This document shows positions 30,304-37,797 of a stretch of DNA of 64,000 nucleotides, piece by piece. Where the stretch lies: positions 3,472,001-3,536,000 of the forward strand of contig NZ_LR594662.1 of assembly GCF_901827175.1 (NCBI RefSeq), in the 5' to 3' direction. Position 1 is the stretch's first letter, and the number at the start of each line of letters is the position of its first letter. Position numbers and translations under genes: made by a program. The DNA is from Variovorax sp. RA8. GTDB lineage: Bacteria; Pseudomonadota; Gammaproteobacteria; Burkholderiales; Burkholderiaceae_C. The notes beneath the pieces are model-generated. The model searched no databases, was not told where the DNA came from, and was given only the letters and a program-made list of their open reading frames with translations.

Positions 30304-31581
30304 GTGACGAAGAACATCGCCGTCATCGGCGCAGGCTGGGCCGGCCTGGCCTGCGCCATCGAGGCCACGCGCGCCGGCCACGCGGTGACCGTGTTCGAGG
30401 CCGCGCGCACCCTCGGCGGCCGCGCACGCGCCCTGCCCGCGCAATTGCCGGGCGGCGAACCGGTCGTGCTCGACAACGGCCAGCACATCCTGATCGGCGC
30501 CTACAGCGCGACCCTCGGCCTCATGCGGGAGCTGGGCATCGATCCCGAGGCGGTGCTGCAACGGATGCCGCTGCGGCTGCGATTCGCCGACGGCGGCGGG
30601 CTCGCCGTGCCGCCCGGCTGGCCGCCGCCGCTGGACCTGCTGGCCGGCATCCTCGGTGCACGCGGCTGGTCGTGGCGCGACAAGGCCTCACTGGCGCGCC
30701 GCGCGCTCGCATGGCGCGCAGCTGGCTTTCTCTGTGACCCGCAGACCTCGGTCGACCAGCTGTGCGCTGGCCTGACGCCGCGCGTGCGGCGCGAGCTGGT
30801 CGAGCCGCTGTGCATCTCGGCACTCAACACGCCCCTCGAGCGCGCCAGCGGCCAGGTCTTCCTGCGCGTGCTGCACGATGCCCTCTTCACCGAACGCGGC
30901 GGCGCCGACCTGCTCCTGCCTCGCGTCGACCTGGGCGCCCTGCTGCCCGACGCGGCGGCGCACTGGCTGGCGAAGCACGGCACGCGGCTGCACACCGGCA
31001 AGCGCGTGCAAGCCATCGGCCGCGACAACACGGGCTGGCAGGTCGACGGCGAGCGCTTCGACCGCGTGGTGCTCGCCTGCCCGCCCTGGGAGGCCGCGCG
31101 CCTCGCAGAATGCGCCGGCCTGCTCGAGGCCGCCGGCTGGTCGCGATCGGCCCAGGCGCTGGAGCACGAAGCCATCGCCACCGTCTACGTCGCAGGTGGC
31201 GCGGCGCTCCCCGAGCCGCTGCTCGCGCTGCGATCGTCCGCCGGCGCGCCCGCCCAGTTCGTCTTCGACCGCGGTCAGCTCGGCGGCCCGCAGGGCCTGC
31301 TGGCCTTCGTGGTCAGCGCCAGCAGCGAGGCGCGCGAGCTGCTGCAGCAGCAGGTCGTGGCGCAGGCCCGCGAGCAGCTCGGGCTTGCCGATCTGCAGCC
31401 GCTGCTGACGGTTGTCGAGAAGCGCGCCACCTTCGCCTGCACGCCGGGGCTCGAGCGCCCGCCCGCCCGCATCGCGGCGGGCCTCCTGGCTTGCGGCGAC
31501 TATGTCGAGGGTCCCTACCCGGCGACGATCGAAGGCGCGGTGCGCAGCGGCAAGGCCGCCGGGGCCCTCGGGCCCGCATAG
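30304..31581 (+). CDS. hpnE: Hydroxysqualene dehydroxylase HpnE
   Basis: This 425-residue FAD-dependent amine-oxidase/phytoene-desaturase-like protein reduces hydroxysqualene to squalene. The Rossmann motif IAVIGAGWAGLACAIEATRA and LGGRARAL are at the N terminus. The C-terminal FAD motif is GLLACGDYVEGPYPATIEGA. I chose GTG 30304 because it directly precedes the FAD motif; the open frame before it is the GC-rich intergenic element. Its 3' end overlaps the convergent sigma-54 regulator gene by 67 bp. Confidence 0.93.
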   Translation: MTKNIAVIGAGWAGLACAIEATRAGHAVTVFEAARTLGGRARALPAQLPGGEPVVLDNGQHILIGAYSATLGLMRELGIDPEAVLQRMPLRLRFADGGGLAVPPGWPPPLDLLAGILGARGWSWRDKASLARRALAWRAAGFLCDPQTSVDQLCAGLTPRVRRELVEPLCISALNTPLERASGQVFLRVLHDALFTERGGADLLLPRVDLGALLPDAAAHWLAKHGTRLHTGKRVQAIGRDNTGWQVDGERFDRVVLACPPWEAARLAECAGLLEAAGWSRSAQALEHEAIATVYVAGGAALPEPLLALRSSAGAPAQFVFDRGQLGGPQGLLAFVVSASSEARELLQQQVVAQAREQLGLADLQPLLTVVEKRATFACTPGLERPPARIAAGLLACGDYVEGPYPATIEGAVRSGKAAGALGPA

Positions 31582-32927
31582 GGGGCCTGCGGCGCGGCCG
31601 GCGAGATGCAGTGCTTGACCATCAGGCGGTACAGGGTCATGCGCGACACGCCGAGCTCGCGCGCCGCACGCGTCACGTTGCGCCCCACGCGCGTCAGCGT
31701 CAGGCAGATGGCGTCGCGCTCGGCCAGCGTACGGGCCGTATCCAGCTCCAGGCATGCCGGGCTCTCCACCTCGGCCAGCCCGAGGTCGGCCGGGCCGATC
31801 AGCCGCAGCTCGCTCATCACCACCGCCCGCTGCACGCGGTTGTAGAGCTCACGCACGTTGCCGGGCCAGCCGTGCGCCATCATGGCCGACAGCGCCTGCC
31901 GGCTGAAGCCCTGCACGCGAGTCTTGCCGGTGGCCGCGCAGCACCGGAAGAAGTGCTCCGCAAGCATTGGCACGTCCTCCATCCGGCGGCGCAGCGGCGT
32001 CAGTTCGAGGGACAGCACGTTGAGCCGGTAGAACAGGTCGTCGCGGAACCGCCCCACGGCGACCGCCTCCGCCAGGTCCACGTGCGAGGCCGCGACCACC
32101 CGGACATCCACGCGCAGGCTGCGTACGCCGCCGACGCGGCTGATGGTCTTCTCCTGCAGGAAGCGCAGCAGGTTGGTCTGCAGCTCCAGCGGCAGGTCGC
32201 CGATCTCGTCGAGGAAGATGGTGCCGCCATTGGCCGCCTCGATCAGCCCGCGGCGCTCCGACGAAGCGCCGGTGAAGGCGCCGCGCTCGTGGCCGAACAG
32301 CTCCGACTGGATCAGCGAGGGAGAGATGGCGCCGCAATTGACCGCCACGAAAGGCCCCGCCGAGCGCAGCGAGCATTGATGGATGGCGCGCGCCGCCAGC
32401 TCCTTGCCGCTGCCGCTCTCGCCGCCGATCAGCACCGGCGCATCGGTCGCTGCCACCCGTCGGATCTGCTTGCGCAGGCGCGTGATGGCCGGGCCCTGCC
32501 CCACCATGCCCAGCGTGTCGGCCGCATGCGTCTGGGTCTCGTGCCGTCGCCGCAGCAGCGCGCGGCGGGCGGCATGCTCCATCATGAGCGTCAGCTCGCG
32601 AGCGTCCGGCGGCAATAGCGCGTGGTCGAAGAAGCAGCCCAGCACCAGGTCGCGAAAGCCCGGGGACTCCAACGCGCAGGGCCCGCACACCACCACCCAC
32701 TCGGTGCCCTTCGAGGCATTGACGCAGGCCTCGATCGCCGCCTCCGGCACCGGCAGCGAATCGCCGATGACCAGCAGTGCTACCGGGAAGCGCCGATGCG
32801 TTTGCAGCCGGCTCGCGGCTGCCAGGTCTGCGGCCTGCGCAATTTCCCAGCCGCCGGCAAGCAGCGCGTCGCGCAGTTCGCGTGAATCGCCGCCGAGTGC
32901 GACGTACAGGAGGGTGAGGTGCTGCAT
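31515..32927 (-). CDS. Sigma-54-dependent regulator with VpsR-like N-terminal domain
   Basis: This 470-residue enhancer-binding protein has an N-terminal receiver-like (VpsR-type) domain at about 1-125 that lacks an obvious phospho-acceptor site. The AAA+ domain has Walker A GGESGSGKE (168-176) and an intact sigma-54-contacting GAFTGA at 216-221, and WPGNVRELYNRVQRA leads into a Fis-type helix-turn-helix (TRAARELGVSRMTLYRLM). It lies next to the Fap-like locus, which has a -24/-12 promoter. That makes it the prime candidate activator of that locus. VpsR relatives control biofilm matrix genes, often through c-di-GMP. Confidence 0.9.
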   Translation of the reverse strand: MQHLTLLYVALGGDSRELRDALLAGGWEIAQAADLAAASRLQTHRRFPVALLVIGDSLPVPEAAIEACVNASKGTEWVVVCGPCALESPGFRDLVLGCFFDHALLPPDARELTLMMEHAARRALLRRRHETQTHAADTLGMVGQGPAITRLRKQIRRVAATDAPVLIGGESGSGKELAARAIHQCSLRSAGPFVAVNCGAISPSLIQSELFGHERGAFTGASSERRGLIEAANGGTIFLDEIGDLPLELQTNLLRFLQEKTISRVGGVRSLRVDVRVVAASHVDLAEAVAVGRFRDDLFYRLNVLSLELTPLRRRMEDVPMLAEHFFRCCAATGKTRVQGFSRQALSAMMAHGWPGNVRELYNRVQRAVVMSELRLIGPADLGLAEVESPACLELDTARTLAERDAICLTLTRVGRNVTRAARELGVSRMTLYRLMVKHCISPAAPQAPYAGPRAPAALPLRTAPSIVAG

Positions 32928-37237: not shown

Positions 37238-37797
37238 TGAGCCCCGCACCGCCGCCCGAAGAGGCTCGCACCGCAGCCGAAGGCGAAGGTGGAGGCGAAG
37301 GTTGCCTTGTCAGACGCGCCGCGCCGCTGCTGCTGGGCGCCCTGCTCAGCCTGGCCCCGGCGCTCCCGGCGCGAGCCGATGCGATCTGGCAGGCGGTGAG
37401 CAACCGTACGCTGGACAGCCAGCGCGGCGGCTTCGACGTCGGCGGCGGCCTGCTGGTGAGCTTCGGCATCACCCGCGCCGTCTACGTCAACGGCGACCTG
37501 GTGACCCAGACCTCTCTCAACTTCGGCCGCGTTGCCGACCTCACGCCGGCGCAGGCCACCCAGCTCGCCCGGCAGATGACGGCCCTCAACCTGGTCCAGG
37601 TCGGGCCGGGCAACAGCGTCGCGAGGGACGTGCTGGCCGGCGGCACGGGCACGATCATCCAGAACACGCTGAACAACCAGCACATCGTGAACCAGACCGT
37701 GATCGACGCCCGCAGCAACGCGATGGGCATGATCAAGAACCTCAATATCCAGAACACGCTGAGCGATGCGCTGAACCGCTCGGCCGCGGGGCGTTGA
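37237..37797 (+). CDS. Secreted LDxxRGG protein with Asn/Gln-rich beta-strand repeats
   Basis: This 186-residue protein has an unusually long polar N terminus (about 25 residues) before the hydrophobic signal core (APLLLGALLSLAPALPARA). TLDSQRGGFDVGGGLL follows the signal. The C-terminal half has IQNTLNNQHIVNQTVI and KNLNIQNTLSDAL, which align with IQNTGANVLIQNAVI of the earlier small protein. Position, motif and translational coupling to the C39 peptidase indicate it belongs to the same fibre system. The exact role (subunit, chaperone or anchor) is open. Confidence 0.65.
   Translation: MSPAPPPEEARTAAEGEGGGEGCLVRRAAPLLLGALLSLAPALPARADAIWQAVSNRTLDSQRGGFDVGGGLLVSFGITRAVYVNGDLVTQTSLNFGRVADLTPAQATQLARQMTALNLVQVGPGNSVARDVLAGGTGTIIQNTLNNQHIVNQTVIDARSNAMGMIKNLNIQNTLSDALNRSAAGR

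Follow-up and report, generated by a model that had tools for sequence, protein, structure and literature searches.

What kind of structure is made by a locus that pairs a FapD-like C39 peptidase with a FapF-like outer-membrane barrel, but whose secreted proteins lack the subunits of Fap? The question is raised by six genes of Variovorax sp. RA8, found in a 64,000-nucleotide stretch of its 7.4 Mb genome (contig NZ_LR594662.1, positions 3,472,001 to 3,536,000; hereafter the window, whose numbering is used throughout). At 31515-37797, a sigma-54 activator gene and the barrel gene lie on the minus strand, and gly, s1 (small1), the C39 peptidase gene and s2 (small2) on the plus strand. An earlier note, made from the letters alone, had described a sigma-54-controlled, Fap-like amyloid or fibre secretion locus of a divergent or undescribed class. 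Sequence comparison places the locus in a distinct, widespread sister class of the C39/FapF kind rather than within Fap. With a probability of roughly 0.7, it is a sigma-54-controlled locus for the export and assembly of a surface or matrix fibre along the Fap route, with subunits of its own.

Distribution and class of the locus

The locus is real and not a chance arrangement, because its gene set recurs in 80 named relatives. These are the best 80 of at least 586 relatives from a scan of 84,980 species with a C39 alignment of the window's kind (class II, below), so the set leans towards near kin. gly, s1 and the C39 gene are present in 80/80, s2 in 79/80 and the barrel in 76/80; the five loci without s2 or barrel are all shorter than full length. 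The relatives are mostly Burkholderiales and Rhodanobacteraceae (Variovorax, Polaromonas, Rhodoferax, Cupriavidus, Ralstonia, Paraburkholderia, Burkholderia, Massilia, Duganella, Janthinobacterium, Dyella, Rhodanobacter, Luteibacter, and Dechloromonas). A neighbourhood conserved in relatives, on which the earlier note had made its reading depend, therefore exists. In Massilia kyonggiensis (L181), the cassette is duplicated in tandem.

Within the family, 23 of 250 genomes, the window's own included, match the FapD model at 1e-20, and loci were retrieved from 20 of the 22 others. gly, s1, C39 and s2 stand in a row in 13 of these 20 loci, 11 of the 13 with the barrel and 10 with the activator, and the remaining seven hold C39 and barrel only. 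There is overlap between the surveys: at least four of the 13 cassette loci lie on contigs that the named set also contains, and locus L198 equals L105. In the window's genus, the C39 peptidase is found at 1e-30 in 24 of 81 genomes, its own included, and the closest relative in that survey is G622.

A survey of the class covered 369 genomes, of which 43 match, again with the window's own. The 32 loci fetched, from 31 of the 42 other matching genomes, group into class I (12 loci), class II (14) and class III (5), with one set aside; L098, which has a stop inside C39, was kept out of both the classes and the C39 tree, and L093 was assigned to class II by eye. Class I corresponds to Fap and has a gene between C39 and barrel. 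Its tested genes match the NCBIfam models FapE in 3/3 loci, FapC in two and FapB in one, with one FapC above cut-off. Class II is the window's kind, with s1, C39 and s2 recognised by profile in 13/14 loci and the barrel in 14/14. In class III, which is Fil-like, C39 adjoins the barrel. The C39 tree places class II (44 rows) on one side of a branch with support 98/92 and class I (12 rows) on one side of another with 99/98, whereas class III needs two changes. Classes I and II occur together in one genome, G261 (L077, L103).

Matches also occur in 12 plasmid records, and five of these regions were read. All five genes of the cassette are present in Cupriavidus metallidurans CH34 (L203) and, by profile, in a Photobacterium region, where gly is matched weakly (1.3e-4). 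The Croceicoccus and Polymorphobacter regions hold s1, C39, s2 and barrel, annotated as hypothetical protein or transporter beside a C39 family peptidase, and the Indioceanicola region holds s1 and C39 only. The match to Photobacterium and to Alphaproteobacteria is partial.

The secreted proteins of the window set it apart from Fap. At E<=1, neither Pfam nor NCBIfam, FapB and FapC included, has a family that matches gly, s1 or s2. A repeat profile built from Fap proteins and run with composition correction off gives 7.1, 5.8 and 1.1 bits on gly, s1 and s2, respectively, compared with 122-661 bits on 12 listed of the 17 Fap proteins from which it was made. The absence of the FapB/FapC pattern and the divergent standing of the locus, both suggested in the earlier note, thus hold. 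Because no FapB or FapC model is matched and the FapD and FapF scores stay below their cut-offs, the locus is best read as lying outside Fap in the strict sense.

The wider existence of fapD-fapF pairs is already known. According to the available text of the Fap papers, such pairs occur in five more phyla (Rouse, 2018; PMC6173800), and FapD and FapF are likely members of larger families (Dueholm, 2013; PMC3792158). No description of the present class was found among the matches listed from the open-access PMC literature.

The peptidase and its candidate leader motif

The C39 peptidase (36554..37237, plus strand, 227 residues) matches PF03412 at 5e-23 and has a signal peptide, in line with the periplasmic FapD-type protein of the earlier note. 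Signal peptides here and below were judged by eye and with a simple rule. Its best NCBIfam model is FapD (1.7e-41, 141.9 bits); the protein is homologous to FapD but scores below the equivalog cut-off of 330, which no genome of the class survey reaches, Fap loci included. The next-best model is FilB, and double-glycine protease domains such as 6mpz are matched at 6e-8. C57, H141 and D157 are invariant in an alignment of 17 sequences (A2) and are presumably the catalytic Cys, His and Asp of C39. Neither Pfam nor NCBIfam revealed an ATP-binding cassette (ABC) transporter domain in the window's C39 protein.

Two small secreted proteins, whose signal peptides bear out another claim of the earlier note, are encoded on either side of the peptidase gene. 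s1 (36196..36543, plus strand, 115 residues) carries LDKYRGG at 36331..36351, and L...RGG is found in 58 of the 80 named relatives. A looser pattern in the other 22 gives GG in 18, with some picks doubtful, GA or AG in three and none in one. s2 (37237..37797, plus strand, 186 residues) carries LDSQRGG at 37411..37431, and the L, R, G and G of this motif are invariant in an alignment of 55 sequences (A4). Leu at -7, Arg at -3 and Gly at -2 and -1 are fixed in 79/79 named relatives with s2, and RGG stands near the N-terminus in 120/120 listed s2 homologues (of 239 found). In an alignment of 31 s2 sequences reaching down to 21% identity, the invariant residues are R, G, G, F and a distant Q-N pair, and Leu -7 is almost invariant. 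When only open reading frames (ORFs) with a signal peptide are counted, L...RGG lies close to the N-terminus in 48/67 s1, 41/51 s2 and 16/70 barrels, compared with 0/76 gly, 0/65 C39 and 3/1186 others; because the signal-peptide rule is simple, these totals are below the locus totals. The hallmark of the small proteins is the RGG leader motif. It was absent from the earlier note, as were the barrel frameshift, the FapE-like position of s2, the promoter and the hairpin described below.

In double-glycine leaders, position -7 is Leu and position -4 is often hydrophobic. L-x-x-x-R-G-G on s1 and s2 resembles such a bacteriocin leader, and from the sequences we infer that it is the cleavage site of C39. 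The AlphaFold2 model of s2 (mean predicted local distance difference test score (pLDDT) 79.6, predicted template modelling score 0.54) has a helix at 12-18, followed by G20-F22 and then a beta domain. G20-F22 (G-G-F) is the only s2 stretch of at least three residues with pLDDT under 50. The model is as one would expect for a cleavable leader.

s2 comes after C39 and, in many relatives, before the barrel, as FapE lies between fapD and fapF. FapE, in the same operon position, bears [LM]-x-x-x-R-G-[RK] in 12/12 class I loci, a count that is partly circular because the genes were chosen by position and a loose form of the motif; three of the 12 match the FapE model, all below cut-off. The two proteins are thus alike in an [LM]-x-x-x-R-G motif near the N-terminus, whereas s2 has RGG where FapE has RG[RK]. 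Their N-terminal profiles align over 32 columns with a score of 31.7, compared with 20.7 for the best of 100 column shuffles (probability 43%, E 2.5e-4 for one comparison). The FapE model of NCBIfam gives no match to s2 at E<=1. In three Fap operons, the small secreted protein at the head has L-x-x-[VMI]-[RS]-G (L073:10752-11228, L074:4364-4696, L075:10270-10590), and the one of L073 has no NCBIfam match.

Fil-like loci show a further pattern. In 8 of 12 class III loci (L035, L036, L039-L042, L100, L101), one to four proteins each carry [LM]-x-x-[VMILWA]-x-[GA]-Q-x-G after the signal peptide; the pattern, which was chosen after inspecting the data, was not found elsewhere on the loci, and the other four loci have no carrier.

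A related site precedes the barrel domain of many exporters. An L-x-x-x-R-[GA]-type site (L...RG[GTASMK] or L...RA[GT], a pattern widened after a first look at the data) occurs in 53 of 75 class II barrels, one anchorless barrel being dropped, and in 28/1186 other ORFs, with barrels and background searched over stretches of unequal length. It lies at the end of the coiled coil, where a coiled coil exists, and suggests that the class II barrel may also be cut. The site was not found in the window's own barrel or its near relatives. Eight short barrels of 348-369 residues (L147, L148, L149, L156, L158, L170, L180, L182) seem by eye to have no coiled coil, as if pre-cut.

The available text of a study of FapD reports that secretion of FapC needs the catalytic cysteine of FapD, that no FapE peptides were seen from the first ~70 residues and that FapE or FapF was suspected as the target (Rouse et al., 2017; PMC5557850). 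The distribution of motifs over FapE/s2 and the barrels fits both suspected targets.

Regulation, candidate fibre subunit and exporter

The activator (31515..32927, minus strand, 470 residues) has an N-terminal VpsR-type domain (PF20161, 8.2e-6, 26.0 bits, cut-off 23.7), an AAA+ domain (PF00158, 3.7e-69) and a Fis-type helix-turn-helix (PF02954, 1.2e-8). Its GAFTGA motif is intact, as the earlier note had stated. In 37/80 named relatives, an activator of the same profile is encoded no more than 8 kb from the cassette. A candidate -24/-12 promoter, TGGCATCGAAGTTGCA (34752..34767, plus strand, score 10.5 of 12), is located 81 base pairs (bp) upstream of the gly start codon. Within 350 bp upstream of gly, 48 of 69 scored relatives have a site scoring 9.5 or more out of 12, with 3.8 expected from dinucleotide shuffles; 11 of the 80 loci had no clear start or too short an upstream stretch and were left unscored. 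The sites occur in 28 of 32 relatives with a nearby activator (1.7 expected) and in 20 of 37 without one (2.1 expected), and for 47 of the 48 the distance to the gly start is 58 to 132 bp. This conserved site supports sigma-54 control of the locus, which the earlier note had proposed from the activator.

Fap loci have similar regulators. An activator of the same profile lies within 3.3 kb of C39 in 10 of 12 class I loci, and the VpsR domain is present in 4/4 class I activators tested. In L073, L074, L075, L078 and L080, strong -24/-12 sites (score of at least 11, with no shuffle control) are found in the stretch that separates the activator from the fap genes. The word 'sigma' does not occur in the available portions of two Fap papers (PMC6173800; PMC3792158). 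VpsR and the Burkholderia activator BerB bind cyclic di-GMP (c-di-GMP), and BerB acts with RpoN, according to the accessible part of PMC5552954. By this likeness, one may guess at c-di-GMP control of the window's activator.

gly (34833..36104, plus strand, 423 residues) is the candidate main fibre subunit. Its composition (119 G, 70 A, 58 S, 46 T, 41 N, and no Cys) matches the long Gly/Ala/Ser/Asn-rich secreted protein of the earlier note, with Thr to be added. The profile of gly is found in all named relatives but in only 7/14 class II loci of the class survey. In an alignment of 28 sequences (A3), both ends are conserved and the middle is variable, and the listed proteins range from 251 to 1057 residues. 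The C-terminus holds a conserved module, AGTFxMSN..SAAGIM..QNSG..SLVQQSVNVQANL (35955..36092, plus strand), made of columns invariant in A3. The C-terminal profiles of gly and s1 are related (probability 94%, E 1.1e-7, equalled by 0/60 column shuffles), as are those of s1 and s2 (87%, 4.3e-6, above all 60 shuffles). Compared with the Fap repeat, the gly and s2 modules do no better than shuffles, and the s1 module is borderline. Two consecutive gly genes occur in Paraburkholderia loci L151, L153, L160 and L165, and the Photobacterium locus (L205:4033-5820) has two short D/Y/S-rich, fibre-like proteins with a similar C-terminal end by eye.

Between gly and s1 lies a hairpin (36105..36195, plus strand) of -59.5 kcal/mol and z -6.6. 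A hairpin with z <= -2 occurs in 60 of 69 scored relatives (11 of the 80 named loci were unscored), compared with 4/34 control stretches upstream of gly.

The fibre need not be an amyloid. gly may instead be a hydrated coat or adhesin, polyglycine-type or a disordered brush, that is anchored by its conserved ends, rather than a cross-beta fibre. The variable middle speaks for such a coat, as does the lack of both a family match and a predicted structure; the structure prediction proposed in the earlier note gave no usable AlphaFold2 model of gly (pLDDT 42.9). In Croceicoccus and Polymorphobacter, moreover, the protein preceding s1 appears by eye to be rich in N/S/D repeats in place of the gly middle. 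However, the exporter belongs to an amyloid-export family, and the shared C-terminal QN module looks, on our personal reading, like strand-turn-strand. A non-amyloid coat is quite possible but not what we would expect.

The barrel gene (32942..34272, minus strand) requires a caveat. The FapF layout described in the earlier note stands in its signal peptide, coiled coil, barrel domain and FapF homology, with a linker between coiled coil and barrel; as an intact gene it does not, since the assembly splits it over two frames at ~33226-33232. One piece (P0002) runs from the signal peptide through the coiled coil and most of the barrel, and the other (P0001) holds the C-terminus. They match the NCBIfam FapF model at 1.5e-37 (129.4 bits, cut-off 700) and 9.3e-12 (C-terminal piece), with FilC next best, and the FapF crystal sequences 5o65/5o67/5o68 are matched at 5e-25 to 7e-24 (5o67, 5.5e-25). 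By this homology, the protein is a FapF-type barrel with a periplasmic coiled coil. In a quick barrel tree, class II does not fall on one side of a branch, because a very long row (L043) lies inside it. The two pieces share one frame in 4/4 distinct relatives (five loci, as L105 and L198 are the same contig), and no second FapF match was found in the genome at 1e-3. The apparent frameshift is a recent mutation or an assembly error, and the barrel gene may be broken in this strain.

Could the whole locus be decaying here? Compared with the closest relative (L197), the barrel is the only split in the neighbourhood judged to fall within a real gene, and the patchy presence in the genus (24/81) would suit a pseudo-locus. 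On the other hand, the other five genes are open and conserved, and an isolated single-frame break is also typical of assembly error. Decay is less likely than not.

The six genes are flanked on the 5' side by the squalene genes hpnC, hpnD and hpnE and on the 3' side by an SH3-domain gene, a HAD-type gene and the ferrochelatase gene hemH. The 3' ends of the activator gene and hpnE share 67 bases (31515-31581).

Known systems and a proposed mechanism

The closest comparison is Fap (Pseudomonas fapABCDEF), with which the window locus shares a FapF-type coiled-coil barrel and a periplasmic C39 peptidase. VpsR-type activators, and in several loci -24/-12 sites, are common to the Fap loci of the class survey as well. 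Unlike Fap, the window locus has a Gly-rich subunit, an additional s1 and a C39 of a separate branch. No FapA-named match appeared in the NCBIfam scan, in a library whose content of a FapA model is unchecked; Fap operons often lack FapA, as stated in the available text of PMC6173800.

These likenesses allow the reading that the locus is a true but fast-diverged Fap operon with decayed FapB/C repeats, in which gly, s1 and s2 would correspond to FapC, FapB and FapE, respectively. The C39-s2-barrel order of many relatives is collinear with fap D-E-F, the N-termini of s2 and FapE match, and the activators near Fap operons are of the same type. The Fap repeat profile also scores weakly in class II, up to 18.2 bits (E 2.2e-5, L160 gly). 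However, the C39 tree parts the classes, both occur together in genome G261, and the repeat scores of the window proteins lie far below those of the listed Fap proteins. A diverged Fap operon is improbable on this balance.

The Fil system of Acinetobacter (FilB C39, FilC barrel) also has C39 beside a barrel, and its class III relatives share secreted proteins with a motif after the signal peptide. The Fil models match the window more weakly than FapD and FapF do, and below their equivalog cut-offs (FilB 5.3e-35, 121.1 bits, cut-off 475; FilC 1.5e-8, 34.4 bits, cut-off 630), and profiles of gly, s1 and s2 found no match in class III loci. Curli (csg) offers a parallel only in the idea of exporting a repetitive surface protein for the matrix: gly, s1 and s2 have no curlin-repeat Pfam match at E<=1, and the window's barrel is FapF-like and not a CsgG match.

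C39 domains of bacteriocin ABC exporters (PCAT, ComA, LahT) share sequence family and catalytic residues with the window peptidase, and their substrates share the double-glycine-type leader, with the -7 and -4 residues given above. Unlike those systems, the window C39 is stand-alone and Sec-exported, and the s1/s2 leader comes after a Sec signal peptide where bacteriocin precursors open with theirs. That s1 and s2 are released as processed peptides acting on other cells, with gly as carrier or decoy, is very improbable: the leaders, the C39 peptidase and the small size of the products would suit it, but the peptidase has no ABC transporter domain, no additional conserved immunity-type gene was seen in the cassette (no dedicated search was made), s2 after GG is predicted to be a folded domain, and gly is kept in all 80 named relatives.

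For the preferred reading, export of a fibre by the Fap route, the following mechanism is proposed. The activator, perhaps responding to c-di-GMP, would turn on gly-s1-C39-s2, and the hairpin after gly would keep the main subunit in excess of the accessory proteins. The secreted proteins would pass the inner membrane via Sec. In the periplasm, C39 would read a short helix of s1 and s2 that ends in L-x-x-x-R-G-G, cutting after the glycines. Mature s1 and s2 would then nucleate, cap or chaperone gly through the C-terminal QN module, which gly shares in related form with s1, and s1 with s2, and the FapF-like barrel would deliver gly to the surface.

More tentatively, and at somewhat less than even odds, one processing code may be common to all C39/FapF-type surface-fibre systems, namely a bacteriocin-type leader behind a Sec signal peptide that is read by a periplasmic C39 peptidase. 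Its variants would be L-x-x-x-R-G-G in the present class, [LM]-x-x-x-R-G-[RK] in FapE and [LM]-x-x-[VMILWA]-x-[GA]-Q in Fil-like loci. Accessory subunits would be cut and, in the majority of class II relatives, the region preceding the barrel as well; a single cut would thereby mature the nucleators and open or reset the exporter.

Two secreted proteins of what appears to be a sister class of Fap have a canonical-looking GG site that ranks with their most conserved residues. The most useful result is that, through this conserved leader, the open question of the FapD substrate becomes a peptide assay and the substrate of FapD-type peptidases is directly testable. In genera such as Variovorax, Massilia, Duganella, Cupriavidus, Paraburkholderia and Dyella, the locus is a further common operon for a surface structure, and one connected with RpoN control.

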